Translations under genes and position numbers: made by a program
Virus record (IMG/VR): IMGVR_UViG_3300037088_000053
Span: 1 to 38,586 of that record
Length of the DNA: 38,586 nucleotides
Source of the DNA: a virus
Reading direction: 5' to 3' (one strand)
Notes under the pieces: generated by a model
Databases searched by the model: none
Told to the model about the DNA's origin: nothing
Seen by the model: the letters and a program-made list of their open reading frames with translations, nothing else
Shown: positions 2,715 through 20,076 of the stretch, piece after piece
Position numbering within the stretch: position 1 is the stretch's first letter
Layout: every line of letters begins with the position of its first letter

Positions 2715-2732
2715 ATGTGTTTATTCCTGTCG

Positions 2733-3143: not shown

Positions 3144-3162
3144 TTTTTATCTCACCACCTAA

Positions 3163-6482: not shown

Positions 6483-6500
6483 TTAACCACTGCGATTATT

Positions 6501-7179: not shown

Positions 7180-7193
7180 CTAACATCACCACA

Positions 7194-7478: not shown

Positions 7479-8321
7479 TCAGGCATTCACCACACTGATC
7501 ACTGATGCAGGCGTGACACCAGGCGTTGGTGCTGGCCCAATCTCGCTTTCTGCTATAATAGTCCAGAAGTCAGACGCAATTGCGTTGGTAATATACGCAT
7601 TTGGCAATCGTGCAAACCCTTCAAATCCCCAACTCGTATTCCAACTATTCACAAGCCACAGATTGCTTGCATCATAACCACAGAACAGCATACAATGCCC
7701 ACCTGCAACTGGATCATTGCCACTTGGATATGGAATAATGGGCAGTGCATTTGCACTTCCACCAGACACATTAAAGATGCTGTCATAAACAGTGGTTCCA
7801 AACGTCACACAAAAGCCAGATGCCAATGCAGTCTTTATATTAAGAAGGGTTTGCGCACTGCCTGCCGTTGAATCAAGTGCATAATAATTCGTTGCCTTAT
7901 TCTTAACTGCGTCAGTCGCACAGGACGCAGGTGGCGCGGCATCAATGTTCGTGTCAAATGGCCACAGTGATTCGTGGCAAATGCCATATTGATCTGTTGC
8001 CTTTACACCAGCACGCACATCTGCGCCATTATCACCTGGAAATGTGCCTGATAATATTCGCGCATTTCTATATTCATATTTAATATTGCCAGGAAAATAC
8101 TTTCCAGTAAGACGCACCTGGCACGATTCAAACAACTTGGTCACGCCTTCAGAAACACAACAACCAATGCCATCCTGGTCATTGACAGTTAAAATTTGGC
8201 TTCGTAAATCAACAGTTGTTGGCAATTTGACTGCCTTTTTTAATGTCAAATCTTCAAACTTATAATCCCTGTGATCTGGTTGCTGCCTGAGCCATCCGCC
8301 CTTAAATTGTTCTTTATCCAT
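7479..8321 (-). CDS. Papain-like cysteine protease (C1A fold)
   Basis: A 280-residue protease of the papain family. Gln49 and Cys55 are spaced as in papain (DQDGIGCCVSEG), His209 lies in VAGGHCMLFCGYD and Asn225 in LWLVNSWNTSWG, so the catalytic triad and oxyanion Gln are intact. There is no signal peptide and no long propeptide; the protein begins with WLRQQPDHRDYKFEDL, a short stretch common before bacterial and archaeal C1 domains. It ends in IGPAPTPGVTPASVISVVNA, a tail also found in the linker of the lectin-bearing protein at 9440..10615. It may cut S-layer or other surface proteins during entry or release; that role is inferred. Confidence 0.88.
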   Translation of the reverse strand: MDKEQFKGGWLRQQPDHRDYKFEDLTLKKAVKLPTTVDLRSQILTVNDQDGIGCCVSEGVTKLFESCQVRLTGKYFPGNIKYEYRNARILSGTFPGDNGADVRAGVKATDQYGICHESLWPFDTNIDAAPPASCATDAVKNKATNYYALDSTAGSAQTLLNIKTALASGFCVTFGTTVYDSIFNVSGGSANALPIIPYPSGNDPVAGGHCMLFCGYDASNLWLVNSWNTSWGFEGFARLPNAYITNAIASDFWTIIAESEIGPAPTPGVTPASVISVVNA

Positions 8322-8324
8322 TTT

Positions 8325-8510
8325 CTATTCACCCATATCGCGCACTTCAATTCTAGTGCGCCCTTCTGCCTGCATTCTAGTAACTGCTTTTGCAGATGCC
8401 TGTTTCATAAACGCTGTCATCCACGTTTCAAAGTCAACAAGTGCAGCATCTGAAACTTGTGTTGCGCCTGCTGAAATTAATTCGTGTCTTAATTGGTTTT
8501 TGCTTATCAT
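8325..8510 (-). CDS. Archaeal-type histone-fold protein
   Basis: A 61-residue protein matching the archaeal histone fold. Helix 1 spans about residues 3 to 15 and ends in SAGA. Loop 1 is TQVSD, as in the GAxxVSDDA of HMf histones. A long helix 2 spans residues 22 to 49 (ALVDFETWMTAFMKQASAKA). Loop 2 is GRTRIEVRDM, which matches GRKTIKAEDI. Helix 3 is cut short: the chain ends three residues after that motif, where cellular histones have about ten more. The loop-2 Thr of the usual Arg-Thr pair is Arg here. It should dimerise with itself or with host histones and bind DNA. It lies 3 nt upstream of the protease gene. Confidence 0.82.
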   Translation of the reverse strand: MISKNQLRHELISAGATQVSDAALVDFETWMTAFMKQASAKAVTRMQAEGRTRIEVRDMGE

Positions 8511-8511
8511 T

Positions 8512-8772
8512 TTAAATCAATCCCTTTGGTTCATCAATAAATCCAATACAATCTTCCTGGCGCGTTTTCTCATTAATCACACAGTTGTCATACACGCGCA
8601 CATAGATTTTGCCATCACCATCTGTTCTTGGAAAAACACGAAAAAACAATGACGTGCATTTGAAGCATTTTTTAAACACTTGTTCCAATCCATCATCATC
8701 ATCAAATTTGACATTAAACACGATGCTTTTATTTGCTTCGTGTTCGTGTGTTGTTGCTCTTTGAACAATCAT
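8512..8772 (-). CDS. Hypothetical protein, 86 aa
   Basis: An unrecognised small protein, probably a beta-rich fold (SIVFNVKFDDDDGLEQVFKK, then LFFRVFPRTDGDGKIYVRVY). Two Cys (KKCFKC) may bind metal. I start it at the ATG at 8772, which has AAAGGA ten nt upstream; a longer frame to 8811 has no such site. It overlaps the previous zinc-ribbon gene by 44 nt in another frame, an unusually long overlap for this genome. It is 2 nt before the histone gene. Confidence 0.65.
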   Translation of the reverse strand: MIVQRATTHEHEANKSIVFNVKFDDDDGLEQVFKKCFKCTSLFFRVFPRTDGDGKIYVRVYDNCVINEKTRQEDCIGFIDEPKGLI

Positions 8773-8932
8773 TGCAGAATTTCCTTTTACGTGTGCCTGC
8801 CAGTTTGACAATTGAATTTCCTACCCGTTTGCGCCAGACAATTTCAAATTGATTGCCACACTTTTCACACGTCAGTATGTCCACCTGTTCATATCGTGGC
8901 CTGTCAATTATTGATCGTGGCGCGGTCATCAT
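8729..8932 (-). CDS. Zinc-ribbon mini-protein, 67 aa
   Basis: A small protein with CEKCGNQFEIVWRKR and, 25 residues on, KFCNDCSKS: two CxxC knuckles that make a zinc ribbon. The C-terminus is basic (NNTRTRSK). Its start overlaps the preceding stop (TGATG). A nucleic-acid-binding role is typical for such archaeal virus ribbons but is inferred. Confidence 0.7.
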   Translation of the reverse strand: MMTAPRSIIDRPRYEQVDILTCEKCGNQFEIVWRKRVGNSIVKLAGTRKRKFCNDCSKSNNTRTRSK

Positions 8933-9120
8933 CTAGCCTGGCTTAAAAAATCAGGACAACCTGCACCCATCGCAGCAACCATCAAATTGTTGCCTTCGTC
9001 ATCATACAGATAATTGCACTGTCTAAGTGGCACGCCATTTGTTTGAATAAAAACAAACAATGGATTGGCGCGCGCACAGAATTCACAGACAACCGGCGTT
9101 CTACTCGCTGGTGCATTCAC
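8929..9120 (-). CDS. Hypothetical protein with CxxC, 63 aa
   Basis: An unrecognised protein with VCEFCARANPLFVFI, then RQCNYLYDDEGN and a last Cys in MGAGCPDF; three or four Cys could hold a metal. The frame is open further upstream to 9219, but that stretch overlaps the zinc-ribbon gene at 9101..9271. I take the GTG at 9120, with AGGAAG 8 nt upstream, giving a 20-nt overlap. The exact start is uncertain. Confidence 0.5.
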   Translation of the reverse strand: MNAPASRTPVVCEFCARANPLFVFIQTNGVPLRQCNYLYDDEGNNLMVAAMGAGCPDFLSQAR

Positions 9121-9271
9121 TGCAAACACTTCCTGGCTGATCAATCCATTGCTGTTTGCCGCATTTGCTGCAGGTTTTAAGAATTTGCCACTTATAATCA
9201 GATGGTCCATCATCGCCAACCGTTGACCTGCGCAATCTGTCTGCCTTATTGTATTCAGCGCCTGGGATCAT
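9101..9271 (-). CDS. Zinc-ribbon mini-protein, 56 aa
   Basis: A short gene read directly from the sequence. It starts MIPGAEYNKADRLRRSTVGD and has CSKCGKQQWI and CSECTSE at the end, a classic two-knuckle zinc ribbon. Its ATG overlaps the stop of the basic peptide gene (ATGA). It overlaps the next gene by 20 nt. Confidence 0.65.
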   Translation of the reverse strand: MIPGAEYNKADRLRRSTVGDDGPSDYKWQILKTCSKCGKQQWIDQPGSVCSECTSE

Positions 9272-9435
9272 AGTGGCTTTGCCTTTCTGCTTGTCTTTGG
9301 GTTTGGATTTCTATGAATCCGTTTGGGTGCTTTCTTAACTTTGATAGCACCCACTTTAACGGCAGCATTTATGGCAGCCACGTTGGCTGCACGTTTTTGC
9401 TGCTTCAGTGTTGGCGCAATTGTTGATTTTGTCAT
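9268..9435 (-). CDS. Highly basic peptide, 55 aa
   Basis: A short gene starting MTKSTIAPTLKQQKRAANVA and continuing with an Ala/Val/Lys stretch and a very basic end (KKAPKRIHRNPNPKTSRKAK). No acidic residues are present. The composition suggests nucleic-acid binding, perhaps a DNA-condensing peptide like a histone tail; this is inference. It follows the lectin-bearing gene by 4 nt with GTGAT upstream of the ATG, and its stop overlaps the next start. Confidence 0.6.
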   Translation of the reverse strand: MTKSTIAPTLKQQKRAANVAAINAAVKVGAIKVKKAPKRIHRNPNPKTSRKAKPL

Positions 9436-9439
9436 TATA

Positions 9440-10615
9440 TCACTTTATCTTTGAGATATATTGCGACCAACCAGACCACTTTGTGCCATCAAACGTTTGC
9501 ACATACACAGAATGCGCAGAATCAACGCCCTGGACATAAACAGAAACGCTGTTTGTGCCGGTTGAAATTGATTCAATTGCAGCGCCTGGTAAAAGTATTC
9601 CCCCCAAACCCTGCCAACCAGACCACGCTGAACCAGTTAATGATCTGTGCCACAATCCTGCGTCAACTTTGCCTGCCGTGTCAGCACCACGAACAAACAC
9701 ATCTATCGTGCCGTTTCCACGCACAGATGCCTTTGGCCCTGCTGTGCATATTCCACCCAAAGAAACAAACGCCGTTGCTTTCCCTGCTGTGTCTATAGTC
9801 CTATACCAAATTGCTTTGTCCGAGCCAAGTATAAATTCATATCTCATTGTATTCACCATTATTTCAGATAAAATGCTGGCAGGCGTAATTGATGCTGGTG
9901 GTGCAGGTCCAATTCCGTTGGGTGGATATTTTGCCTGCAGGTTTGACACTATGGATTCAAAACCAAGTGACTTGTATGCGCTCAACATCCCATCATTGAT
10001 GCCTGCCCATATTGCCCAATGATTAAGGCCACCATTTGCAGCCATCCAATCTGCCATTCCCAAATATGTCAGTCCTGAATTGTTCTGACTGTTTGTTAAT
10101 ATAGGATTTCCGTATGTCCAACAGCCTGCAAGTATGCCATTCTTTTTGCCTGCCTTACAGCCCTGCTGTATATATGACCATTCGTTATCGTAATAAGATT
10201 CCCAAGAATTCATCACAGTGAACGGATGCGAATAGAAATCTTTCCAAAGGCCACACTGGTCACAATTATAATTCACATAGCCTTTGAAATACTGTTTAAG
10301 AACATCCAAGTCACCTTCCCTGCCACCCTCACTGCTGACATATTGAACACCGGCGTTTGCCAGCGCCTGGAAATAACCAGTGAAGTTTGACAATGGCGCA
10401 GTCACCTGGCCACCTGCCCATATCACCTGTTCAATGTCCACGATGACGTTTAATCCTGCTTTCTTCAGGGTGGCCAGTGCTGCTGTTGGAATGCTCTGGT
10501 CTGAAACCACAAGCTGACAGGTATTAAAATGATGTGACACAAAATAAGGAACCGTCACGCCATCCTGCACAGCATTTGGTGTTGCTGAAAAATGATAGTC
10601 AATATTTGTTGTCAT
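9440..10615 (-). CDS. TIM-barrel-like protein with PLL-type lectin domain
   Basis: A 391-residue protein of two parts. Residues 1 to about 230 alternate strands and helices as in a glycosidase-like barrel (LKKAGLNVIVDIEQVIW, ALANAGVQYVSSEGGREGD, ILAGCWTYGNP, LNHWAIWAGINDG), with several candidate acidic catalytic residues. A linker GIGPAPPASITPASIL follows. Residues about 255 to 391 are beta-propeller-like repeats (WYRTIDTAGKATAF, LWHRSLTGSAWSGWQGLGG, VYVQTFDGTKWSGWSQ), typical of PLL/fucose-binding lectin modules. It probably binds and cuts host surface glycans. Substrate unknown. It follows a strong TATA box and heads an operon that includes the protease and histone genes. Confidence 0.75.
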   Translation of the reverse strand: MTTNIDYHFSATPNAVQDGVTVPYFVSHHFNTCQLVVSDQSIPTAALATLKKAGLNVIVDIEQVIWAGGQVTAPLSNFTGYFQALANAGVQYVSSEGGREGDLDVLKQYFKGYVNYNCDQCGLWKDFYSHPFTVMNSWESYYDNEWSYIQQGCKAGKKNGILAGCWTYGNPILTNSQNNSGLTYLGMADWMAANGGLNHWAIWAGINDGMLSAYKSLGFESIVSNLQAKYPPNGIGPAPPASITPASILSEIMVNTMRYEFILGSDKAIWYRTIDTAGKATAFVSLGGICTAGPKASVRGNGTIDVFVRGADTAGKVDAGLWHRSLTGSAWSGWQGLGGILLPGAAIESISTGTNSVSVYVQGVDSAHSVYVQTFDGTKWSGWSQYISKIK

Positions 10616-10763
10616 ATTAAGTAACCTTCCTGCTTCTTATCTGTTTGCATTCTATATATAAAGTGCCTTCCATAATCACAAACCGTTCCCCCCAATTGGG
10701 TTTTATGTATATACATGAAATTTAATAAAGCGTATATGTCTTTCATGGGTTTACGGGGAACGA
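10616..10763 (-). other. AT-rich intergenic region with inverted repeats
   Basis: About 150 nt between the primase/helicase stop and the lectin-bearing gene. Besides the TATA box it holds an inverted repeat CGTTCCCC (10684-10691) / GGGGAACG (10755-10762), the palindrome CCCAATTGGG (10691-10700) and the palindrome ATGTATATACAT (10705-10716). Candidate roles are transcription stop for the primase gene, operator, or replication origin beside the primase. Confidence 0.5.
10655..10662 (-). promoter_or_regulatory. Archaeal-type TATA box upstream of the lectin-bearing gene
   Basis: The minus strand reads TTTATATATAG here, a near-perfect archaeal box A. A start about 25 to 27 nt downstream would give a leader of roughly 17 nt containing AGGAAGG before the ATG at 10615. 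No bacterial -35/-10 pair of similar quality is visible. Confidence 0.6.
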
Positions 10764-12905
10764 TTATTTAAAACTGGTCATAACACTTTCTGGCATAAAA
10801 TCTTCTTCTAAAGGAACCAGTGTGCGCACAGCGCCATAATATTCTGTTTTAACCTTCCACGCATCAGCATTCTTCCTTCCTTCAAAGTCTGCATCTTTAT
10901 CAATTTCGCCAGCAACTTTGTCAATCAGCCCAAGTGCGTGCAGATCTTCAAGCGTGCGCCTGGTGTATGTTGATGACATACCTGTGAACTGTGCGATCAG
11001 TGCAGTTGCACGCAGTGTGTCTTTTAGCCGTTCCAACACTTTCAATTTGGCACTTGGTATGTTGTCTTTAATAATCCGGTAAGCAAAATCCCTGTCATCA
11101 TCGTTTGCTTCCCTGGAATGAATGAATGCATGCACGCGTGCCATGCTGCAGATTGATTTGAACATTCTGGTTGGATATTCTGGTTCCGGCAAATCATCAA
11201 TGTCCTTTCGCCAATCACGTGAAACAAATGCGCGCACTTTCGCCAGGAACGCACACAGGTTCAGAATGTCTGCTTCCATCGTCTTTGGCAATTCCGGCAA
11301 TTCTTCACGCTGCAGGCGCTGATGCTGATGGTCAATGAATGCCATCGTTGCTTCGTGCAGTTCATCGCGCATTTCTTTTTCCTTTCCCATATTTTCAATT
11401 GACTTCAAACTGGCTTTCATTGGATCGCCTTTTGGCCTAAAAAACATCAACCTGGAACCAAGTGTTGAATTAAAACCCGAAAATCGTTCAATAGCACTTG
11501 TGCTGGCAAATAGAATATTGCTGTTGATGTCCCAATATGTTTTGTCAACACCGCGTCCCCACGATTTGTGAATATAACCATCAGACAGTTCACGAAACTG
11601 CGCAAATATCTTATTCCGTTCATCCTCTTTTGCAGACAACAGCGTGGTTAAGTCTTTGATCACCACCATTCTGTGCTGCAACTGTGGAATTACATCTTCA
11701 TTTGTTTTCCATCCAGAATATAGCGCGCTGTCAGTTATTGTTGAAATGGGAAAAACAAACTGGTTGTCACGTTCACCAAAGCAGCGCATCATTTCTGTTT
11801 TCATACTTCCAGATGGACCAACCACGCCATAATACACTGGCTCAAATCCACAGAAATTTAACACCGCCACGCAAACTGGCGCAACGATGTTGTATGGTTC
11901 GATAAAAAATGCCCACTTATGAAAAACATCCAGCAGCGCGTCAACTGTGGCGCATTCCATAGTGATTGCTTCGATTGGAATTATCACATCACGGTTTGAC
12001 ACGTGCTTTCCATCAAACTTTATTTCTGCACATATGTCTTTTCCAGATATGGTTATTGAACCAGCAGTTCCTGGCGTGCCAAGTGGCTTCGTGTCCTGAT
12101 TTGAAGATGAAACAAATTCAATGCCCTTCAATATGTCGCGTTCCAGGGTGCGTTCTTTAATCGGCAGTTTGCTGCGATGCAGTATTTCTGCAATCACATC
12201 AGGATCTTCTGTGAACGGCACGCACCTGGAAATCAATGATTCGCGCCCTTCTGATGCAGACCAACCAGAATCAATTGCTTCATAATCTCCATAAAATAAT
12301 GTTGTGAACTTTGCGCCATTCTTTGCTGCTTTCGCTTTCGCAATCACATAATCAGCTTCGTCATCATAATCAGATTTCGCCAGTGGTTTATCAAATCGCT
12401 GTTTAACTGCACCAAAAACTTCATCATAAATTTCTTTCAGTTCTGCCTGCCTATCTTCTATGGTTGCAGGATATTCTGGAAACAAAGTATTTCCTGTAAA
12501 AGTCAAAAATCTGTTTTCAGACCAGAATTCAATGTTGCCCTTTTTGTTATGTTCACCAGGTGCTGGCGAGCGCACCCAAACATGAAATCCTTCGCCAGAA
12601 GGACTGATTTCTGTGTAGCTGTTCAGCTTTTTAATCCTGGCCTCTGCCAAGTTGTCAACCATTCCACCATCAATGCAATGATCAAAGTCAACAGCAGAAA
12701 AAGGATCGTTGGCAGACAACACGAAACCAACGCCATCATAACGATCAAGCGCATCAACACATTCATCAAACGTTGACCACGTGCTGCTGTCTGTGCTACT
12801 TGCGCGCTTATCTGTGCGTGGATTCATTGGAATTTTTTCACTATTGTTAAAAGTAACCCACTGTCGCAAATCTCGCAATTCAATAGGGATGTTTTGAATA
12901 TTCAT
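10764..12905 (-). CDS. Primase-polymerase / helicase fusion (NrS-1-like AEP plus SF3-like ATPase)
   Basis: A 713-residue replication protein. The N-terminus resembles NrS-1-type primase-polymerases: KIPMNPRTDKRASSTDSSTW, the metal motif AVDFD (Asp73, Asp75), YTEISPSGEGFHVWV (Ser103 to His108) and ENRFLTFTG. The C-terminal half is an AAA+/SF3-like helicase with Walker A GPSGSMKT (363 to 370), a Walker B-like VVIKDL (Asp418), a sensor-1 stretch SNILFASTSA and an arginine motif GSRLMFF. A winged-helix-like segment (TALIAQFTGMSSTYTRRTL) lies near the C-terminus. It could prime, unwind and possibly extend viral DNA; no other polymerase is seen in the window. It has no clear ribosome site and starts 7 nt after a terminator T-run. 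Confidence 0.87.
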   Translation of the reverse strand: MNIQNIPIELRDLRQWVTFNNSEKIPMNPRTDKRASSTDSSTWSTFDECVDALDRYDGVGFVLSANDPFSAVDFDHCIDGGMVDNLAEARIKKLNSYTEISPSGEGFHVWVRSPAPGEHNKKGNIEFWSENRFLTFTGNTLFPEYPATIEDRQAELKEIYDEVFGAVKQRFDKPLAKSDYDDEADYVIAKAKAAKNGAKFTTLFYGDYEAIDSGWSASEGRESLISRCVPFTEDPDVIAEILHRSKLPIKERTLERDILKGIEFVSSSNQDTKPLGTPGTAGSITISGKDICAEIKFDGKHVSNRDVIIPIEAITMECATVDALLDVFHKWAFFIEPYNIVAPVCVAVLNFCGFEPVYYGVVGPSGSMKTEMMRCFGERDNQFVFPISTITDSALYSGWKTNEDVIPQLQHRMVVIKDLTTLLSAKEDERNKIFAQFRELSDGYIHKSWGRGVDKTYWDINSNILFASTSAIERFSGFNSTLGSRLMFFRPKGDPMKASLKSIENMGKEKEMRDELHEATMAFIDHQHQRLQREELPELPKTMEADILNLCAFLAKVRAFVSRDWRKDIDDLPEPEYPTRMFKSICSMARVHAFIHSREANDDDRDFAYRIIKDNIPSAKLKVLERLKDTLRATALIAQFTGMSSTYTRRTLEDLHALGLIDKVAGEIDKDADFEGRKNADAWKVKTEYYGAVRTLVPLEEDFMPESVMTSFK

Positions 12906-12911
12906 GATATA

Positions 12912-12945
12912 TGAAAATAAAAAAAGTGGCCATCATTTGGCCACT
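12912..12945 (-). terminator. Hairpin plus T-run terminator
   Basis: On the minus strand AGTGGCCA, a 5-nt loop, TGGCCACT and then TTTTTTTATTTT: an 8-bp perfect stem and a long U-tract. It overlaps the stop of the 50-aa gene and ends the accessory operon. The next gene starts immediately after it, so read-through or a leaderless start would be needed to express the primase. Confidence 0.85.
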
Positions 12946-13085
12946 GTTGTTTCCGTTTCTTTGTGTTTTTCGCGGTCAATGCGCACAAGTGTGCGTGATG
13001 GCAGGTCAATGCGCGCTTCAACATTAATCAGTTTGCCACACGAAGGGCAAAACAAGATTTCTGTCGCAATGACTGTTTCCGCCAT
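12933..13085 (-). CDS. Small CxxC protein, 50 aa
   Basis: A short gene starting MAETVIATEILFCPSCGKLI, followed by a charged helix rich in Arg, Lys and Glu. One CPSC knuckle only, so it would need a partner or dimer to bind zinc. The start is 5 nt after the previous stop. Its stop lies within the loop of the terminator hairpin. Confidence 0.65.
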   Translation of the reverse strand: MAETVIATEILFCPSCGKLINVEARIDLPSRTLVRIDREKHKETETTVAK

Positions 13086-13090
13086 TCAAA

Positions 13091-13372
13091 TCACGCTGGC
13101 GGCAGGCGAAGCAGCACTTCAGGTGCAGCATAGTGCGCGTAAACAGCATATGCCAGTGGGATTGCAAAACTAAATCCCAATGTGAAGATTGCCAGGATTA
13201 ATGCCACAACGATTGACACAATCCAACCTGCTGCAGATCCCCAAGATTTCTTTTTCAGCAACACAGTGCTGCTGCCTTCTTCTTTCACAGTGAATCCCTG
13301 CGTCATGAAGTCGTCAACCACACGATCCATTTCTGCCTTATCGGCAACTTCCCTTATTCGTGGACTTACCAT
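13091..13372 (-). CDS. Two-helix membrane protein with archaeal-like domain
   Basis: A 93-residue protein. The first half is a small soluble domain (VVDDFMTQGFTVKEEGSSTV, then LLKKKSWGS) and the second half two hydrophobic segments (AAGWIVSIVVALILAIFTLG, SFAIPLAYAVYAHY). This pairing of a 'long-loop binding' beta unit ending in KK.(W/Y)GS with a membrane hairpin resembles conserved proteins of unknown function common in haloarchaea and methanogens; that likeness is from memory. The ATG has AGTAGGTGAT upstream. Function unknown. Confidence 0.7.
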   Translation of the reverse strand: MVSPRIREVADKAEMDRVVDDFMTQGFTVKEEGSSTVLLKKKSWGSAAGWIVSIVVALILAIFTLGFSFAIPLAYAVYAHYAAPEVLLRLPPA

Positions 13373-13382
13373 ATTTTATCAC

Positions 13383-13529
13383 CTACTGGTTCCTTATGTA
13401 TTCGTCTGCTGTTTCTAATCTACAAGCCAGAAGTTCATATTCATCTGTTCCAATACATTTTGCGCGCACCCAACCTGCAACAAAATTTAATGCAACAAGT
13501 GCGTCTGTCTTTTTCACGCTGTCTGCCAT
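13383..13529 (-). CDS. Small helical protein, 48 aa
   Basis: A short gene starting MADSVKKTDALVALNFVAGW and ending in ETADEYIRNQ. It fills the gap between two real genes and has AAGGTGGCAT before its ATG. Mostly helical by eye, two Cys, no recognisable domain. Confidence 0.6.
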   Translation of the reverse strand: MADSVKKTDALVALNFVAGWVRAKCIGTDEYELLACRLETADEYIRNQ

Positions 13530-13531
13530 AG

Positions 13532-13954
13532 TTATGCCACCTTTGATTGCTTCATTGATGGTTGGCGCACTTTGTCAATATTGTTGTATAAACCATTGCT
13601 GGTCTTTGACACCAATATTTCACACTTCGTGCCGCGAATTTCTTTCAGGCGCATTGGGAATGGTTCATTCACGTCTTTGCCCAACATTTGGGCAACAACT
13701 GCCTTCAAACCACTGCGCGCACCCCAACTGCGATTCACGCGAGTTGCCAGGTAAACATCTTCATCCTGGTCTGCGTCTTTCGCTGCAACCTTAAACCACA
13801 GCATTATTTTATCAATGCCTTCTGCGTGCCATTGGTCAACAACCTTTGGCAATACCTGGTAGTTTTCAAATGTTGCCAAATACCAATCGTCATCTAGCAA
13901 CACACGTGGCCCATCCTGAAATTCTATTTCTTCTGGTTCTTCAAATTGTTTCAT
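13532..13954 (-). CDS. ssDNA-binding-like protein (DUF669-like)
   Basis: A 140-residue protein with an OB-like pattern: LLDDDWYLATFENYQVLP, a strand DKIMLWFKVA, ATRVNRSWGARSGLKAVVAQ, then the end strand RGTKCEILVSKTSNGLYNNI. The order of a small beta barrel, a helix with a 'G..S.L...' turn and a conserved 'G.kc.i.v' strand is that of the DUF669/single-strand-binding group of phage replication proteins. It would protect ssDNA near the primase/helicase, whose gene lies four genes downstream. The fold is inferred by pattern, not proven. Start overlaps the previous stop (ATGA). Confidence 0.5.
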   Translation of the reverse strand: MKQFEEPEEIEFQDGPRVLLDDDWYLATFENYQVLPKVVDQWHAEGIDKIMLWFKVAAKDADQDEDVYLATRVNRSWGARSGLKAVVAQMLGKDVNEPFPMRLKEIRGTKCEILVSKTSNGLYNNIDKVRQPSMKQSKVA

Positions 13955-14083
13955 ATTTTAACTACTCCGTTAAGTGCAGCCAGCACTGTGTCCAGTGCTT
14001 CTGTTACAATTTCCCTGTCTAACAGACCGATACAAATAGCCTTCGAGAAATCGAAGGGCGTTTAATGCTTCTGTGTTTTCCAT
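13951..14083 (-). pseudogene. Small gene split by a one-base frame change
   Basis: The gene starts well: GGTGGTGAT before the ATG at 14083, coding MENTEALNALRFLEGYLY. That frame then runs into an unlikely tail and stops at 13970. One base further on, the +1 frame codes LLDREIVTEALDTVLAALNG and ends in a stop that overlaps the next ATG (ATGA), as for most genes here. The total is 133 nt, 44 codons plus one base. A single inserted base, a sequence error or a programmed +1 shift would explain it. The region includes a perfect 7-bp inverted repeat CCTTCGA/TCGAAGG at 14041-14057. Confidence 0.55.
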
Positions 14084-14100
14084 ATCACCACCAATTCAAC

Positions 14101-14277
14101 TTATTCATCAACGCTTGATTCTGTGCCATAAGAGATCAGCATGACAAAATTGCATGCTGGCCCTGTGTGCTGTTTTCCATCAAGCGTGTATGACCACGAA
14201 TAAAGTTTGTCACACGGTTTGCAGTCAGTCTGCCAGGCAACCGGCCTGTTCTTTAGCCTGCAGAACACGTGTGACAT
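14101..14277 (-). CDS. Small Cys-containing protein, 58 aa
   Basis: Starts MSHVFCRLKNRPVAWQTDCK and continues PCDKLYSWSYTLDGKQHTG, then ACNFVMLISYG. A CxxC (DCKPC) and two further Cys could bind zinc. I place the start at 14277, one base after the coiled-coil gene's stop; a longer frame to 14325 would overlap it. Unknown function. Confidence 0.6.
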   Translation of the reverse strand: MSHVFCRLKNRPVAWQTDCKPCDKLYSWSYTLDGKQHTGPACNFVMLISYGTESSVDE

Positions 14278-14278
14278 T

Positions 14279-14719
14279 TCAGCAGTCCACCACGTTTGTT
14301 GCTGCCAACTTGGTGGCTTCTTCAAGCGCGGCGGTCAAACGTTTGATTTCGTCTGATTGATGCCTGATTTCGTCTGACTGTTCTGCAGCCTTCACTGCAA
14401 ATCCTTTTTCAAGTTTCACAACTTTGATGTGTTCCTGGTCTGCGTTGTTTATCAGCTCGCTGCGTTCTGCCAGCATTCCCTTGATTCTGTCTGCTGCTTC
14501 CTGATTGATTTCAATATAGCGCGCACGTTCGCTGCTGCATGTGTTCAGTTTTGACATCAATTCCGCGTTCTTTTTTGATAACTGTTTGACCAGGTTGCAG
14601 TTTGCGCACTTTTCGTTTTGTGCAATCGTCAGCGCGTCAACTTCTGCTTCCAGCTCTGCGATTGTGTTTGCCGCAGCGTCTGGATCAGTCATATGTTCAA
14701 TGCTTTCTTCATTAATCAT
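14279..14719 (-). CDS. Coiled-coil protein with CxxC, 146 aa
   Basis: A long helical protein with heptads over most of its length (NTIAELEAEVDALTIAQNEK, KNAELMSKLNTCSSERARY, RHQSDEIKRLTAALEEA). A CANC motif near residue 38 lies between the first two coils. No membrane segment. It overlaps the previous gene by 8 nt. Function unknown; a scaffold or oligomerising protein is possible. Confidence 0.65.
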   Translation of the reverse strand: MINEESIEHMTDPDAAANTIAELEAEVDALTIAQNEKCANCNLVKQLSKKNAELMSKLNTCSSERARYIEINQEAADRIKGMLAERSELINNADQEHIKVVKLEKGFAVKAAEQSDEIRHQSDEIKRLTAALEEATKLAATNVVDC

Positions 14720-14879
14720 TTTTCACCAACTTCAAATCATCAGTGTGCTTCGATTCGTTATATATTCGCCTGCGTTTCTTGATGCAGGAAGTGCAGATCG
14801 CAACGTGCCATTTGTTCAACAGCACGCCACAGTCTGCGCATCGTCTTTCACCATCACACAGTGTTTGTTCAACCACCAT
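14712..14879 (-). CDS. Zinc-ribbon mini-protein, 55 aa
   Basis: Starts MVVEQTLCDGERRCADCGVL and continues with CTSCIKKRRRIYNE: CxxC pairs 15 residues apart form a zinc ribbon, followed by a basic helix. I start it at the ATG at 14879, which has AGGTGGAC upstream; a TTG at 14906 is possible. It overlaps both neighbours by about 10 nt. Confidence 0.65.
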   Translation of the reverse strand: MVVEQTLCDGERRCADCGVLLNKWHVAICTSCIKKRRRIYNESKHTDDLKLVKND

Positions 14880-14979
14880 TTGTCCACCTGCGCAGCCGTT
14901 TTTCAATCATAAGCAGCAGACCAACCGCCAGTGCTGCTTCAATGAAGATGACTGCTTTTATGTCAAACCATAATGACAT
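14869..14979 (-). CDS. Single-pass membrane peptide, 36 aa
   Basis: Starts MSLWFDIKAVIFIEAALAVG and continues LLLMIEKRLRRWTNGG: one hydrophobic helix with a basic cytoplasmic end. GTGATAAA lies upstream of the ATG. The stop overlaps the next gene by 11 nt. Confidence 0.6.
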   Translation of the reverse strand: MSLWFDIKAVIFIEAALAVGLLLMIEKRLRRWTNGG

Positions 14980-14983
14980 TTTA

Positions 14984-15220
14984 TCACTTCCTGTGTGTGA
15001 TGTCCAGATGCAACTGGCGCGCCAATGAATTTATTTCCAGTGCTGTTCGAACAGTGCCGCAGGCGATGCATTCATTTGTGTCACCTGCAATGTGTCCAGG
15101 AACGCGGCACGTGCTGCCATTGTCATATTCGCAGCCATCAAGCACGTCTGTCACATCTATTTCCTGTGGTCCTGTAGTAAACACTGTATTCTTCTGTTTT
15201 TTGACTTTTGTTTCCATCAT
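14984..15220 (-). CDS. Small Cys-containing protein, 78 aa
   Basis: Unrecognised. It has a basic start (METKVKKQKNTVF), four Cys (VLDGCEYDNGSTCRVPGHI, then TNECIACGTV) that could form one zinc site, and a helical end. The start overlaps the previous stop (ATGATG). An interferon-like or ribbon fold is possible but cannot be told. Confidence 0.65.
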   Translation of the reverse strand: MMETKVKKQKNTVFTTGPQEIDVTDVLDGCEYDNGSTCRVPGHIAGDTNECIACGTVRTALEINSLARQLHLDITHRK

Positions 15221-15435
15221 TGTTCCATCCTATTATGCGCGTGTTCTGCAAACGTGCCAAGTGCGCCAGCACACTGTCGCATCTTATGCCGTATCGCACC
15301 AAGTTCTGCAATTTCCAGAGTTGTGAATTCTGTGATATGATCACGCTGTTGGTCTGCAACTCTGATTTCCAGGTTGTTTAAAGTGACAGAAATGCTGGCC
15401 AGTTCAGTGACCAGCACGTTTGGGTTTTTTTGCAA
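15217..15435 (-). CDS. Helical protein, 72 aa
   Basis: Unrecognised, mainly helical (VTELASISVTLNNLEIRVAD, TLEIAELGAIRHKMRQCAG), possibly a short coiled coil. The start is uncertain: a TTG at 15435 follows GGTGAT by 5 nt, while a GTG at 15417 has no good site. With the TTG the gene overlaps the preceding zinc-ribbon gene by 32 nt. Confidence 0.55.
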   Translation of the reverse strand: MQKNPNVLVTELASISVTLNNLEIRVADQQRDHITEFTTLEIAELGAIRHKMRQCAGALGTFAEHAHNRMEQ

Positions 15436-15613
15436 CTAAATCACCGCCATTATGGCACAATCCGCGCTTTCCCATATCTTCCATTTCTTCTGCTGTGCGC
15501 AGTTCTGCTGGCCCTACTTCGTGTTTGCATTCCAGGCATTCATATGAATTCTTTGGATCAATCGATTTTGAGCCACAATAGGGGCAATACAGTGAATATT
15601 TGGTTATTGACAT
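15404..15613 (-). CDS. Zinc-ribbon protein, 69 aa
   Basis: A clear zinc ribbon: YCPYCGSKSIDPKN and YECLECKHEVGPAE, two CxxC knuckles 16 residues apart, as in transcription-factor and RNA-polymerase-type ribbons. A helix and a basic C-terminus follow. It starts right after the preceding stop. A transcription-related role in an archaeal host would be plausible, but is inferred. Confidence 0.7.
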   Translation of the reverse strand: MSITKYSLYCPYCGSKSIDPKNSYECLECKHEVGPAELRTAEEMEDMGKRGLCHNGGDLVAKKPKRAGH

Positions 15614-15799
15614 TTATCGCACCTTCTTTGTCACAAAGCCACGAAGGTCAACTAATGAGCTGCGTTTATTGAATTCTGACTGCGCGCCTTTTTCTGTGCG
15701 CACTGTTGATTCCACCAATTGGTTTTCAACCGTCAGCGTCTTTATCTGCAGTTCATATGTGGTTTCGTGGCCATCGTGTAGAATCAGGGTTGCAGTCAT
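15614..15799 (-). CDS. Small beta-rich protein, 61 aa
   Basis: Starts MTATLILHDGHETTYELQIK, continues with strand-forming TLTVENQLVESTVRTEKGA and a basic end. The ATG at 15799 overlaps the preceding stop (ATGA), which decides it over an upstream alternative. Not recognised. Confidence 0.65.
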   Translation of the reverse strand: MTATLILHDGHETTYELQIKTLTVENQLVESTVRTEKGAQSEFNKRSSLVDLRGFVTKKVR

Positions 15800-15966
15800 G
15801 CAACCCACAACCCAACTAGCAGCACTGCGAGCCAGGAAACCGCCATTGCTAGAAGTTCAAATTTCATTTCTGACAGTCTGCCAACATCGCGTGCGTTTGA
15901 TACAGAAAGCCACGTGGTCACTGACGCTGCAGCAAACACGCCAAGCATCAATTCAAAGTTGTCCAT
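15796..15966 (-). CDS. Two-helix membrane peptide, 56 aa
   Basis: Read directly from the sequence: MDNFELMLGVFAAASVTTWL, a short polar stretch (SNARDVGRLSE), then a second helix LAMAVSWLAVLLVGLWVA. Two membrane segments with a small loop. It fills the gap between two genes, and its stop overlaps the next start. Confidence 0.65.
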   Translation of the reverse strand: MDNFELMLGVFAAASVTTWLSVSNARDVGRLSEMKFELLAMAVSWLAVLLVGLWVA

Positions 15967-15968
15967 CT

Positions 15969-16244
15969 TCAATCATCCCTGTATTGCTTCAGCTCATTGC
16001 GTGCTGCTTCCAGACCAGCTTCTGCTGCTGCCAGCTTCTGTTCCAGCGCATATACCTTTTCAGCATTAGCGCCAGATGCTTTGAAGTGTGGACAGTTATA
16101 GTTCATTTCTGGCCAAACCCACATGAAATTGTCGGTTACTTTGTTCTGTTTATTCCAATATTCACACTGGAATGTGTTCATCTGTTCGTCAGTGTCAAAT
16201 TCAAAATCCAACACTGAAATGCAAAATCTGCAATTGTCTGCCAT
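15969..16244 (-). CDS. Zinc/coiled-coil protein, 91 aa
   Basis: The N-terminal half carries CRFCISVLDFEFD, MNTFQCEYWN and MNYNCPHFK, three Cys sites that may bind metal. The C-terminal 30 residues are a coiled coil (VYALEQKLAAAEAGLEAARN). GGAGTAAAAGAAA precedes the ATG. Not recognised. Confidence 0.65.
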   Translation of the reverse strand: MADNCRFCISVLDFEFDTDEQMNTFQCEYWNKQNKVTDNFMWVWPEMNYNCPHFKASGANAEKVYALEQKLAAAEAGLEAARNELKQYRDD

Positions 16245-16258
16245 TTTCTTTTACTCCA

Positions 16259-16705
16259 TTACCATAAACATTTCATTTTCTTTGCGCGTTCCAACACGTC
16301 ATCTGCAGCATTCTGCAGTTGTTCTGAATAATAATTTCCCCAATCAGTGTTCCACGAATTCTTATATAACAGTGGATATTTGTGTTTAGGCTTCACGCGC
16401 TTTTGTGCTGCCGTGTTTCTGATTCGCTGTGGTTTCTTCCTTTTGGGTGCTGCCATAACTGGTGCTGTTTCCTTTTCGTTTTTCCATTCGTCATCAAATA
16501 TTCCTTCCAACTTCACGCTGTTGCACCTGTCCATTCCAGAAGTCACATCGAAACGATCAATGAATATCTTAAACGTCTGGTTGTCCAGATGCACTATAGC
16601 ATACCAGTTCTGTGGAAGGGAATATGCGGGTGTCATGTTACTCCATAAATTTTCAATTCCACGATGCTGGAACTGCTGCAGTGTTTTGTCGAACCAATAA
16701 CTCAC
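16259..16705 (-). CDS. Hypothetical protein, 148 aa
   Basis: Unrecognised. An N-terminal folded part rich in aromatic residues (YSLPQNWYAIVHLDNQTFKI), a basic linker (PKRKKPQRIRNTAAQKRVKP) and a helical end. The start is a GTG at 16705 overlapping the previous stop. Confidence 0.65.
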   Translation of the reverse strand: MSYWFDKTLQQFQHRGIENLWSNMTPAYSLPQNWYAIVHLDNQTFKIFIDRFDVTSGMDRCNSVKLEGIFDDEWKNEKETAPVMAAPKRKKPQRIRNTAAQKRVKPKHKYPLLYKNSWNTDWGNYYSEQLQNAADDVLERAKKMKCLW

Positions 16706-16836
16706 ACCAGCACCGTTTTAAACAAAAGTATGTTTGCAGCCATTAAAAGTAAAATAAGCTGCGCCAATGCCAACACAACCAGGATTTCCCCCAATGGTGT
16801 TTTAGAAAAAAAATGCTTCACGCTCTTTGGATTCAT
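16702..16836 (-). CDS. Single-pass membrane peptide, 44 aa
   Basis: Read directly from the sequence: a basic start (MNPKSVKHFFSKTPLGE) and one long hydrophobic helix (ILVVLALAQLILLLMAANIL). AGGAGTGAACAG lies 11 nt before the ATG, a leader motif shared with the gene at 18658. The stop overlaps the next start. Confidence 0.7.
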   Translation of the reverse strand: MNPKSVKHFFSKTPLGEILVVLALAQLILLLMAANILLFKTVLV

Positions 16837-16875
16837 TTTTCTGTTCACTCCTGTCGTTCTAAAACAGCAATCAGC

Positions 16876-16909
16876 CGCCAGGTGGCGGAGATGAAAAGAC
16901 CACCTGGCG
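16876..16909 (-). other. 10-bp perfect hairpin in leader
   Basis: CGCCAGGTGG and CCACCTGGCG with a 14-nt loop, between the gene ending at 16968 and the membrane peptide gene at 16836. No T-run follows directly (GCTGATTGCTGTTTT), so it may be a weak terminator, an mRNA stabiliser or a protein site. Confidence 0.5.
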
Positions 16910-16957
16910 TGCCGTGTGCTGCGAGATAGATACCGACACAGACAAATGGACTTTTGA

Positions 16958-16967
16958 CTATTTATAA
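16958..16967 (-). promoter_or_regulatory. Possible TATA box
   Basis: The minus strand reads TTATAAATAG just after a stop codon, about 120 nt before the next start at 16836. With the downstream hairpin this could be an internal promoter with a structured leader. Weak evidence. Confidence 0.3.
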
Positions 16968-17330
16968 TTATTCGTCAATCAACGGCAGCGTTGGTGCATC
17001 TGGATGCAGTTCATCGTTGACTTTGATATGAAACATTTTAAACAGCACCACCCTGCGTGCGTGGATGTCATTCATCACTTCACGGTGCAATTCCAATGCC
17101 CACACGCCGTGTGCAATAAATTCTGTGTCCTGTAAAAGTGAAAGGATGTGGCCAAATGCCGCATACTGGTGGCTGTCGTGAACATCATAAACACGTTCAA
17201 CATATTCCTGTTTTTCTTTGTCCCAAACCCTGATGCCAGCAAATTTTAGGCAGTGCAGTTCTTTATCAATCCTGCGCAGCTTCATTTGACAACGTTGGAA
17301 AGGAACAGTATCGTGTTCGTCTGGTTGCAT
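16968..17330 (-). CDS. Hypothetical protein, 120 aa
   Basis: Unrecognised protein of mixed structure (FAGIRVWDKEKQEYVERVYD, HQYAAFGHILSLLQDTEFIA), His-rich. No membrane segment. The ATG at 17330 has no clear ribosome site, so the start is uncertain. It lies after a 170-nt stretch with a long inverted repeat. Confidence 0.6.
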   Translation of the reverse strand: MQPDEHDTVPFQRCQMKLRRIDKELHCLKFAGIRVWDKEKQEYVERVYDVHDSHQYAAFGHILSLLQDTEFIAHGVWALELHREVMNDIHARRVVLFKMFHIKVNDELHPDAPTLPLIDE

Positions 17331-17362
17331 TTAGGCAGCACAATGTGTTGCAGTGTTGCAGG

Positions 17363-17425
17363 TTATACTTTCCGCGCGCAACATATAAGAAGCAAAAAAA
17401 GAATTGGTAGGTTGTTGAAGGCCAC
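17363..17425 (-). CDS. Possible 20-aa hydrophobic peptide
   Basis: A GTG-initiated frame reading MAFNNLPILFLLLICCARKV, 12 nt after GGAGTGAACA, the same leader motif as at 16836 and 18658. It lies within the long hairpin region. Could be a leader peptide or chance. Confidence 0.25.
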   Translation of the reverse strand: MAFNNLPILFLLLICCARKV

Positions 17426-17485
17426 GAAAATTGTTCACTCCTTCCCTTCTAAATGCTCTCTGCGTTTTGCCTGTGACCTTCAACA
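17413..17485 (-). other. Long-range inverted repeat
   Basis: TGTTGAAGG (17413-17421) and CCTTCAACA (17477-17485), 9 bp with a 55-nt loop that contains the GGAGTGAACA ribosome site. On the minus strand a run of seven T follows about 14 nt later. It may control access to the following genes or act as a terminator. Confidence 0.4.
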
Positions 17486-17498
17486 GCCTTTTTATTAA

Positions 17499-17600
17499 CT
17501 AATTTTCGTTATCCATCAGATAAACCAGCAGTTCATCCACAGATTTGCAGCCACGTCTGTATTTCAAATCCATAGTGCGCAGCCAGGTTTCCCTATTCAC
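17499..17600 (-). CDS. Possible 33-aa peptide
   Basis: A GTG-initiated frame overlapping the stop of the upstream gene, coding MNRETWLRTMDLKYRRGCKS and then VDELLVYLMDNEN. The overlap arrangement is like that of real genes here, and the sequence looks protein-like. A shorter start at the internal ATG is possible. Confidence 0.45.
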   Translation of the reverse strand: MNRETWLRTMDLKYRRGCKSVDELLVYLMDNEN

Positions 17601-18018
17601 GCGCAGTGTCTTTGTTTTCGCTGTCATTTAATGCTGTCCTCACCATGTCAACATACATTTCATGGATGAAATGTGTTGCTTCTTTGATTGTCTTATTCGC
17701 TTCTGCTGCAGTCATTCCAACCTTCAGCCGTCTGCCAATTTCCACGCCACAATCTGCAGCTTCGCCGTATTCCAATAAATCTTCTGTGGTTTTATCACGA
17801 AATGGATTTGGCAACATTCCATCGTCTGCTGCGTGCAGCTCGATCAGCGCCAGGGCAACGTTGCTGACCAGATCAGCGTGTTCTTTATATTCAGCAATAG
17901 CTTCTGCATCAAGAACAACGCCACTTTCTTCAAGTCTTTTCATCATTTCATCAATCTGTGTTCCCAAAAAATCAAAGTATTCGTTGCGTGCTGCGTGGTA
18001 TTTTTCATTGTTCGACAT
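17593..18018 (-). CDS. Helical protein, 141 aa
   Basis: Unrecognised, mainly helical and acidic (YFDFLGTQIDEMMKRLEES, IAEYKEHADLVSNVALALIE, KTTEDLLEYGEAADCGVEIG). No membrane segment. The start at 18018 follows GGAGTATGTGAAA and overlaps the preceding gene by 14 nt. Confidence 0.65.
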   Translation of the reverse strand: MSNNEKYHAARNEYFDFLGTQIDEMMKRLEESGVVLDAEAIAEYKEHADLVSNVALALIELHAADDGMLPNPFRDKTTEDLLEYGEAADCGVEIGRRLKVGMTAAEANKTIKEATHFIHEMYVDMVRTALNDSENKDTARE

Positions 18019-18184
18019 TTTCACATACTCCGTCTAGACACTTTAATGAAAGGTTTTCGCAGTCCAGACAATATGGATTTGTCTGGAAAAAATCATACGT
18101 TTCACATGGGTGCATGCAATCACTGCAGGGAATGTTCTGTGGGTTCCTGCTGCATGGTGTAGGGATTTCGCATACTGCTGCCAT
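18005..18184 (-). CDS. Cys-rich mini-protein, 59 aa
   Basis: Starts MAAVCEIPTPCSRNPQNIPC and holds nine Cys in all (CSDCMHPC, YCLDCENLSLKCLDGVC). Probably binds one or two zinc ions, or is disulfide-bonded outside the cell; no signal peptide is seen. The ATG at 18184 shares bases with the previous stop (TGATG), which decides it over a longer frame. Confidence 0.65.
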   Translation of the reverse strand: MAAVCEIPTPCSRNPQNIPCSDCMHPCETYDFFQTNPYCLDCENLSLKCLDGVCENVEQ

Positions 18185-18447
18185 CACAATCCCATTCCTT
18201 TTGCAAACAACATAAGCAACAGAATTGCCAGCAGGAAGTTTGAAACCACAATAGCAAACAGCCACCCTTCGCTGACTGTCCACAGCGTTCTGCCAAGTTT
18301 CAGCACCGGCTTCATGTTGTGAAGCAACTGAATTGCATTATCATAGCCTTTGCTGTCGGTCACGTGCCACACAATGTTTGTGGTTCCAGATTTAACCGAT
18401 ATTTCCACTGCTGTATATTCTACAGGCTCGCCATATTCGTTTTCCAT
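18184..18447 (-). CDS. C-tail-anchored membrane protein, 87 aa
   Basis: A soluble N-terminal part (EYTAVEISVKSGTTNIVWHV) and one long C-terminal hydrophobic helix (LFAIVVSNFLLAILLLMLFA). The layout, an N-terminal domain and a membrane tail, fits a membrane-bound accessory protein. A GTG at 18456 is an alternative start. Confidence 0.65.
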   Translation of the reverse strand: MENEYGEPVEYTAVEISVKSGTTNIVWHVTDSKGYDNAIQLLHNMKPVLKLGRTLWTVSEGWLFAIVVSNFLLAILLLMLFAKGMGL

Positions 18448-18448
18448 T

Positions 18449-18658
18449 TTACGCACCCAACTTTAACCACTTGGTTTCTGCACCAAAAGTGTTCAGCCAC
18501 TGCAGTTCTTTGCGTTCCTGTCGTGACAGCTTCGATTTCGTGAACGTGCGCTTGGTGTAAAAACGGTTTGCTTCAACGCGCTGTTCACAGTTCATACAAG
18601 CAGGCGATTCAACAGAAAATTCCACGCCTGCACATCGTGCCTTATTTAGTCTGCACAT
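18449..18658 (-). CDS. Small Cys/basic protein, 69 aa
   Basis: Starts MCRLNKARCAGVEFSVESPA with CMNCEQRVEANRF: four Cys near the N-terminus suggest a zinc site, followed by a basic helical part (RTFTKSKLSRQERKELQW). AAAGGAGTGAAC precedes the ATG. It follows the HNH gene. Confidence 0.65.
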   Translation of the reverse strand: MCRLNKARCAGVEFSVESPACMNCEQRVEANRFYTKRTFTKSKLSRQERKELQWLNTFGAETKWLKLGA

Positions 18659-18665
18659 TGTTTGT

Positions 18666-18965
18666 TCACTCCTTTTTCAATAAATATTGTATTACAGCAT
18701 TAATGGTCGGAAAGCACTGATAAAGTTTAATTCTCTGTAAATCATTCCACGTGTCAGCACTTACGCGCAATGATTTTTCTTTGGAATGATCATAGTTTGG
18801 AATTTTTGGGTGCAATTTGCTGTGGCACGATTTGCACACACTGATTTGGTTTTCTGGTTTGTTGTTTTTGTAGCTCAAATGGTGCGCAATATATGCTGGC
18901 GCACCACACAAGACACACGTGTTTTTGTCACGCTGCAATACAATATGCCTGTTCTCATTTGGCAT
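18666..18965 (-). CDS. HNH endonuclease with ribbon-helix-helix-like tail
   Basis: A 99-residue protein. Residues 17 to 52 form the HNH core: CVLC, AHHLSYKNNKPENQ, CKSCHSKLH, with the His pair at 28-29 and zinc Cys at 17, 20, 44 and 47. The last 35 residues (SLRVSADTWNDLQRIKLYQ) resemble a ribbon-helix-helix DNA-binding unit. The ATG lies about 25 nt downstream of a perfect TATA box, so the message is probably leaderless. It is the first gene of the accessory operon. Confidence 0.82.
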   Translation of the reverse strand: MPNENRHIVLQRDKNTCVLCGAPAYIAHHLSYKNNKPENQISVCKSCHSKLHPKIPNYDHSKEKSLRVSADTWNDLQRIKLYQCFPTINAVIQYLLKKE

Positions 18966-18989
18966 AGTCCATATGTAGATACATCTTTG

Positions 18990-18997
18990 TATATAAA
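18990..18997 (-). promoter_or_regulatory. Archaeal TATA box, likely leaderless promoter
   Basis: The minus strand reads TTTATATA, preceded by the purine-rich GATAGA, a fair BRE. The expected start 25 to 27 nt downstream falls on or next to the ATG at 18965, so the mRNA would have no leader. Confidence 0.7.
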
Positions 18998-19009
18998 TCT
19001 ATCAAATCT

Positions 19010-19062
19010 ATTCTCATTCCGCGTGAGAATAAACAAACCAGCAAATAGTGCGCCACAGCGCA
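19010..19062 (-). promoter_or_regulatory. Two inverted repeats upstream of the accessory operon promoter
   Basis: ATTCTCA/TGAGAAT (19010-19016 with 19024-19030) lies 12 bp upstream of the TATA box, a natural place for an operator. A second repeat, GTGCGC/GCGCAC with a 4-nt loop at about 19046-19061, lies further up. Regulator unknown. Confidence 0.45.
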
Positions 19063-19081
19063 CTTCTTAAAGTGTCATTTG

Positions 19082-19113
19082 GAAAAAAGAAAGAAGCAGT
19101 GGCCTGCTTTTTC
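19082..19113 (-). terminator. Hairpin plus T-run after the tail/lysis operon
   Basis: On the minus strand AAGCAG, a 4-nt loop, CTGCTT and then CTTTCTTTTTT. It closes the long structural operon after the holin-like gene. Confidence 0.7.
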
Positions 19114-19168
19114 AGACCACTTACAAAACCCTATACCTTTGCGTCTGGAAACATAGCTGGAAGCAATC

Positions 19169-19363
19169 TTATACGCCATCGTTGGCGAAAACCTTCAGCG
19201 CAAGTGTCAAAAGTGCGCCTGCAAGCAAAAGATAGCCAGCTTCTGCGCTGGTAACTGTCACATATTGTGGTATGAGAGCCAGCGCACCTATAATGAATAC
19301 TGCGATCAGCACCCATGACTGTGGACTGCTAATAAATCCAGACCAAGAAAACGTTAATGCCAT
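19169..19363 (-). CDS. Holin-like membrane protein, 64 aa
   Basis: A short protein with two hydrophobic helices (SWVLIAVFIIGALALIPQYV and AGYLLLAGALLTLALKVF) separated by a polar turn, and a short acidic end. Size, topology and place after the tail genes fit a holin. The ATG at 19363 is set by AAGGTGGTGAT; a TTG at 19387 is less likely. A holin in an archaeal host would open the membrane for the surface-degrading enzymes; this is inferred from position. Confidence 0.65.
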   Translation of the reverse strand: MALTFSWSGFISSPQSWVLIAVFIIGALALIPQYVTVTSAEAGYLLLAGALLTLALKVFANDGV

Positions 19364-19376
19364 TTTTATCACCACC

Positions 19377-19889
19377 TTAAAAGCCAAGTCGTATTGAAAC
19401 CACGGTTAAAATTAAACCACCAATAATAGTGCCCATTAATCCTATAAGCCACCTTTGCAATTTATCCCTGTCTGCAGCCTGCTGTTTTAATGTGGCAATT
19501 GCCAGGGATTCCAACCGATGATCATATTCTTCACAGATTTTTGCCATGTCCTTTTCGTGTTCATCTTTTATTCTGTTTATTTCTTTATTTCCCGCCTCAC
19601 GCAGAGTAGAAATTTGGCCTTTAATTCCATCAAGTTTGTCGTTCAGTGTGCTTGATAAATTATTAAATGCGTTCACCATTGATGCAATGTCACCATTCTG
19701 CCGCCGTTGCCAATCAGTAATTCCTGCAATCCGTTCACCAATCGCAGCAACATCAGTGTGTGCATTTTGCGCAACCTGCCGTATTTCTTTTACAACATCT
19801 TCCAATGCAGCCAGGCGCAATTTGGCTTCCAATGTTGCATCCGCGTGTGCGTCATCACGTCTTTTTAGTGCTGGTTCGTTTTCTGGCAT
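19377..19889 (-). CDS. Coiled-coil protein with C-terminal membrane anchor (XhlA-like)
   Basis: A 170-residue protein: a charged start, a long coiled coil over about residues 20 to 140 (RLAALEDVVKEIRQVAQNAH, FNNLSSTLNDKLDGIKGQI) and a C-terminal helix WLIGLMGTIIGGLILTVVSI. The layout resembles XhlA-type haemolysin/holin partners. It lies between the tail receptor genes and the holin-like gene, which supports a lysis role. It overlaps the previous gene by 35 nt. Confidence 0.65.
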   Translation of the reverse strand: MPENEPALKRRDDAHADATLEAKLRLAALEDVVKEIRQVAQNAHTDVAAIGERIAGITDWQRRQNGDIASMVNAFNNLSSTLNDKLDGIKGQISTLREAGNKEINRIKDEHEKDMAKICEEYDHRLESLAIATLKQQAADRDKLQRWLIGLMGTIIGGLILTVVSIRLGF

Positions 19890-20076
19890 TTGTCTGTTTC
19901 ACATTCAACTGTTTTTCGTGCAGTGCCACTGTCTTTTCAAGTTTTGCCAAGCGCTGTTCAACCGTGTCAGCCTGACGCACATTTATCACGGTTGGCGGCG
20001 CTGGTGGTTCTTGTGTTGATGCAAGCAGCGCGTCAACATCTTCCTGTGTTATCCCTGGATATTTCTGTTTAATCAT
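19855..20076 (-). CDS. Small protein with coiled coil, 73 aa
   Basis: Starts MIKQKYPGITQEDVDALLAS, has a Pro-rich linker and a short coil (VEQRLAKLEKTVALHEKQL), then a basic tail (NARKRTSTKKT). Probably a minor tail or lysis-associated protein. Its end overlaps the next gene by 35 nt in another frame. Confidence 0.6.
   Translation of the reverse strand: MIKQKYPGITQEDVDALLASTQEPPAPPTVINVRQADTVEQRLAKLEKTVALHEKQLNVKQTNARKRTSTKKT

Follow-up and report, generated by a model that had tools for sequence, protein, structure and literature searches.

The TTTATATA box ahead of a small HNH endonuclease gene, together with the sequences around it, is likely to be the core promoter of an early operon that is read by an archaeal host, with the HNH reading frame starting leaderless and with a small class of the Halobacteriota as the host group. 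It lies in a virus record of 38,586 nt (IMGVR_UViG_3300037088_000053, positions 1 to 38,586, ~38.6 kb), which was analyzed at its full length and is called the window here.

All credible genes of the window are carried on its minus strand. They encode terminase, portal, MuF, S78 protease, HK97 capsid, siphovirus tail proteins, primase and, at 3555-3743, a small HTH protein, and the hallmarks of tailed viruses (class Caudoviricetes) are present in the HK97-type capsid, portal, large terminase and siphovirus tail genes. The gene order suggests that the genome is circularly permuted. A relative, L002, has ~0.7 kb extra between the MuF gene and the resolvase gene if compared with the window, and thus the record is nearly, not quite, complete; the left window end cuts the MuF gene, and it is between both ends that this ~0.7 kb is absent. 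Genes of the HNH type are found at three places (763-1107, 4556-5023 and 18666-18965), at least some of them at sites that differ in relatives, which would fit mobile homing nucleases. Between the terminase subunits there is a palindrome-rich intergenic stretch (6590-6742) with GAACAAAAGATATGTTTTGTTC and CATTTCCGAAAATATCTATT, which has short matches at several places in genome G045, two of them at most 120 bp apart. An inverted repeat, AACCGTTCCCC ... GGGGAACGATT (10681-10765), whose arms are 63 nt apart, follows just after the primase gene and is kept in the relatives L060 and L061, and a terminator-like hairpin, AGTGGCCAAATGATGGCCACT, with a T tract (12906-12950) ends a few bases before the primase ATG. 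The features that bear on the promoter and on the host are collected in Table 1.

Table 1. Positions of the promoter elements, neighboring signals and host-related genes in the window
Feature	Position	Strand	Remarks
Possible histone-fold protein, 61 aa	8325..8510	-	weak
391-aa protein	9440..10615	-	PLL-type lectin repeats; N-terminal domain also present in the candidate host class
Second TTTATATA	10655..10662	-	starts at -48 relative to the ATG at 10615, for a predicted leader of ~17 nt
HNH endonuclease gene, 99 aa	18666..18965	-	first gene after the promoter
Predicted transcription start	18965	-	the A of the start codon or at most ~2 nt away; A at +1 behind T at -1
TATA box TTTATATA	18990..18997	-	first base at -32, centre at ~-28.5 from the HNH ATG; matrix score 11.1
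BRE-like GATAGA	18998..19003	-	directly 5' of the TATA box; purine-rich
Inverted repeat TATTCTCA-N7-TGAGAATA	19009..19031	-	between the terminator-like hairpins and the box
Intrinsic-terminator-like hairpins, T-rich tail	19094..19121	-	upstream of the promoter; end of the late operon

Read 5' to 3' on the minus strand, the sequence ahead of the HNH gene is GAGAATAGATTTGATAGA-TTTATATA-CAAAGATGTATCTACATATGGACT-ATG. An earlier note had placed the box about 25 nt ahead of the ATG, behind a purine BRE-like stretch, and both points are confirmed: 24 nt lie between the octamer at 18997-18990 and the ATG (18965-18963), and the six bases abutting the box, GATAGA, are rich in purines. No Shine-Dalgarno sequence precedes this ATG, where CTACATATGGACT, neither GGAGG nor GGTGA, is found. 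The bare octamer is weak evidence, since its count of 3 on both strands of the window is also reached in 6 of 100 shuffles (mean 0.68); the two copies on the minus strand are both intergenic and just upstream of genes. A more specific measure came from a 14-position matrix, trained on 490 regions upstream of genes called in 718 kb of G006 and G026 of the candidate host group, with the virus excluded. The motif was refined upstream of the starts by expectation-maximisation from a TATA seed, with no position given, and it converged on A-rich positions followed by TTTATAT, the former sitting 3-5 bases upstream of the box, with a sharp peak that places the box at -32 to -29. If the virus is scanned with this matrix, GATAGA and the box together reach 11.1, although GATAGA is less A-rich than the matrix consensus, and the site at 18997 ranks first among the intergenic and second among all minus-strand sites. 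The chance of such a score is 8.3e-6 per position, ~6e-5 for one gene within -34 to -28, and ~1.4e-3 over 24 gene gaps.

The spacing of the box to the HNH start codon falls within the -34 to -28 peak of the candidate host class. This peak reappears in four genomes of the class outside the training (5 sites vs 0.5 expected, Poisson p 2e-4), and there is none in mixed bacterial contigs (1 site vs 1.6 expected) nor in other Halobacteriota (0 sites vs 0.6 expected). A sigma-70 scan of 18900-19300 for -35 and -10 hexamers with a spacing of 16-18 nt found 0 matches. In leaderless genes the TA signal is located ~30 bp from the start in archaea and ~12 bp in bacteria (PMC3160421). Sequence, position, the independent host-trained matrix with its controls and the sigma-70 result support the archaeal core promoter of the earlier note, and the site at 18997-18990 is very probably one. 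The transcription start at 18965 is predicted from the position of the box and from the peak in the candidate host class, and an mRNA of the HNH gene that begins there would be leaderless, which we consider quite likely.

In which archaeon is such a promoter read? A nucleotide search with the left half of the window (1-20000) in 393 genomes of the Halobacteriota, the phylum of Methanoregula, gave a single recurrent signal, the gene at 9440-10615, found in five genomes. At the protein level it occurs in all seven genomes of the candidate order, which is a monotypic class of the Halobacteriota, at 1-27 places each and with 38-56% identity in the best match per genome. Neither the gene nor its N-terminal domain is found in 150 genomes of Methanomicrobiales, the order of Methanoregula; loci in Chloroflexota match by the C-terminal repeats alone and have the N-terminal domain in no case, and the domain is absent from PLSDB plasmids. 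Thus, among the cellular groups tested, the N-terminal domain is found in that class only, and otherwise in viruses only. The class contigs with a homologue are archaeal chromosome, one of them with a ribosomal protein operon. The C-terminal repeats are lectin blades of the PLL type, which are known in Photorhabdus. The structure of the whole protein is predicted with a confidence too low for a structural search, and the product, possibly acquired from the host, may act in receptor binding or on surface glycans. In G006, two copies of the domain are located at the ends of a glycosyltransferase-rich contig.

The seven genomes are multi-contig drafts of ~2 Mb, and five of them have McrA. The class best fits GTDB Bog-38 / Ca. 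Methanoflorens; Bog-38, the Ca. Methanoflorens lineage, is such a lineage and is listed apart from Methanocellia (PMC10873845, PMC10805028). It is reasonably likely that the host is a methanogen within this class. Neither a provirus nor a spacer nor a second shared gene links the virus to the class, and the other window proteins have no match in ~0.87 Mb of host-class DNA. If, instead, the gene at 9440-10615 had been transferred and the true host were a different methanogen or archaeon from this habitat, it would be understandable that a single gene links the virus and the class, with no provirus, and that other viruses carry 39-43% versions, so that the gene does travel. However, no genome of the class lacks the gene, most have it in many copies, and the spacing of the TATA box fits this class and not the other Halobacteriota tested; we regard a host outside the class as rather unlikely. 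Three further host indications were considered and dropped: a C1 peptidase as a second link is found in none of the seven genomes, tetranucleotide similarity does not discriminate, and Methanoregula, suggested by a terminase match, has closer versions of the same terminase in Chloroflexota and Bacillus, besides the 0 of 150 genomes given above for the 9440-10615 gene. When the window was compared in two halves with the 393 Halobacteriota and the seven candidate genomes for CRISPR spacers, no examined locus was CRISPR-like. Neither a spacer from these archaeal genomes nor a prophage tied the virus to a bacterium. Spacers could not decide the host because Cas1 was found in none of the seven genomes, and matching of spacers is unlikely to assign viruses to this class.

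The surroundings of the box point to an early promoter under control. Two terminator-like hairpins lie directly upstream of the promoter (4 sites in this region vs 0.4 expected), and the inverted repeat between them and the box is kept in L060 and L061 with 12-nt arms (92%), where the terminator stretch is still recognizable, too. Beyond this virus group, a scan of the viral collection found the repeat in three unrelated contigs, and these lack the TATA box. The box, which lies a short way downstream of the kept repeat and has the late-gene terminator on one side and the early operon on the other, is probably a regulated early promoter, and the repeat is a putative operator. In L060 and L061 the HNH gene is missing at this place and a different gene follows; a strong TATA box (score 9.9) is present, ~11 bp further from the inverted repeat than in the window and 61 nt from the next start. 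Therefore, the promoter is conserved and the leaderless arrangement is not.

This difference is what one would expect if the promoter and the archaeal host are real but transcription of the HNH gene begins either slightly ahead of its ATG, giving a short leader, or within the coding sequence, with the distance of -32 a by-product of the landing of a mobile HNH gene. In L060 and L061 the gene lies 61 nt downstream of the same promoter region, behind GGAAGTGA, and the second TATA box of the window likewise predicts a short leader. Against this stand the -34 to -28 peak in the candidate host class, the HNH ATG with no Shine-Dalgarno sequence, and a more distant virus, L233, which has a homologue of the 9440-10615 gene and in which an HNH-like gene after the late genes shows the same arrangement, with a matching box at -30. 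A short leader is therefore improbable in our view, and the leaderless start is preferred. As to the second copy, which the earlier note had put before the gene at 10615, the octamer is real at 10662-10655, but at -48 it is too far for a leaderless transcript, and its predicted leader carries GGAAGG before the start. In relatives, TTTATATA is located at -31 (L060) and -30 (L006) from an aligned GTG start, by which the aligned gene may be leaderless in these two; in L060, an upstream in-frame start is a possible alternative. The second copy was also considered as coding (Leu-Tyr-Ile, within a 20-codon frame). Conservation at the DNA level fits better, since the differences in L060 are mostly at codon position 2, as judged by eye, and L006 has its box in a different frame.

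How would such a promoter work? TBP and TFB of the host would bind the box and the BRE, and host RNA polymerase would then read the early operon, probably from the A of the HNH start codon or a base beside it. Translation of the HNH mRNA would do without a Shine-Dalgarno site, and a regulator sitting on the inverted repeat may control the promoter. The host in which these steps are supposed to occur would be a methanogen of the small Halobacteriota class, most likely Bog-38 (Ca. Methanoflorens and relatives).

The archaeal host of the earlier note had also been argued from GGTGAT-type ribosome sites and from a histone fold. The ribosome sites are real: GGTGA stands ahead of 10 of the 54 called genes and GGAGG ahead of none, compared with 4.8% and 12.8%, respectively, in a mixed bacterial set (Fisher p 1.2e-5 for window vs bacteria). 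Such use of GGTGA agrees with an archaeal host and is not proof of it. The histone fold fared less well. The best Foldseek match of the 61-aa protein is indeed an archaeal histone, HPhA (1ku5, TM 0.65), but with an E of 1.1 and no Pfam histone match; the model has one short and one long helix, with the third helix missing, and bacterial histones are also among the structural matches. An archaeal histone is suggestive only, as far as the modeled fold goes. The structural genes look like those of an ordinary phage, as had been said; the capsid and portal matches are phages of bacteria and the terminase is closest to bacterial contigs (51-54% identity, 54% with a Bacillus contig) vs 45% for psiM2. 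Since bacterial contigs are closer than psiM2 and the capsid and portal match bacteriophages, the structural genes cannot tell the domain of the host, and gene sharing through them, which had been proposed as a check, turned out ambiguous. With the 9440-10615 gene and the GGTGA-type Shine-Dalgarno use taken together, the host is very likely archaeal. A bacterial host, for which TTTATATA would be an AT-rich word that arose by chance or a poor -10 element, draws on these phage-like structural genes and on the bare octamer, which is not rare enough by itself, and is very improbable in view of the missing sigma-70 match, the box at -32, where a bacterial signal would be expected near -12 (PMC3160421), the host-class matrix and its controls, GGTGA rather than GGAGG sites, and a gene common to 7/7 methanogen genomes.

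The kind of element described here is already known, and its value is as a host label, one that can be tested, in a virus with structural genes that resemble ordinary phages. Should the host class be correct, the virus belongs to a family (about ten related contigs) infecting uncultured methanogens that yielded no Cas1 and to which spacers cannot link it, and promoter spacing and shared host genes could assign hosts where spacers fail. No characterised virus of Bog-38 (Ca. Methanoflorens) was met in the literature searched. It may be an even chance that the window stands for a group of tailed viruses of the uncultured peatland methanogens of class Bog-38, and that these viruses have a leaderless early promoter controlled by an operator and a lectin-bearing protein of host origin.

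Several known systems resemble parts of this picture. The Methanobacterium phages psiM2 and PhiF3 (Leisingerviridae, Anaerodiviridae) are tailed like the virus of the window and their hosts are methanogens. The terminase of psiM2 is the closest among cultured phages, at the identity given above, with PhiF3 at 38%, whereas beyond the terminase there is just a weak MuF-like match, to PhiF3 only. Methanoculleus virus Blf4 (Flagovirus; PMC8540584) is likewise a siphovirus of a methanogen, ~37 kb with genes in one direction, but its terminase alone matches (33%). The intergenic repeat promoters of the halovirus HF2 (PMC8707807) are likewise AT-rich intergenic elements of an archaeal tailed virus; they are repeated units, whereas the window has one inverted repeat and a box heading one operon. 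There is also a likeness to the archaeal TATA/BRE core promoters of leaderless genes, such as those of Thermococcus onnurineus (PMC5316973). Although the promoter of the window, compared with these, is a prediction from the sequence with a deduced start, in both an A/T-rich octamer is centred ~27-28 nt from the start, a purine- or A-rich element lies just upstream, and a pyrimidine at -1 is followed by a purine at +1.
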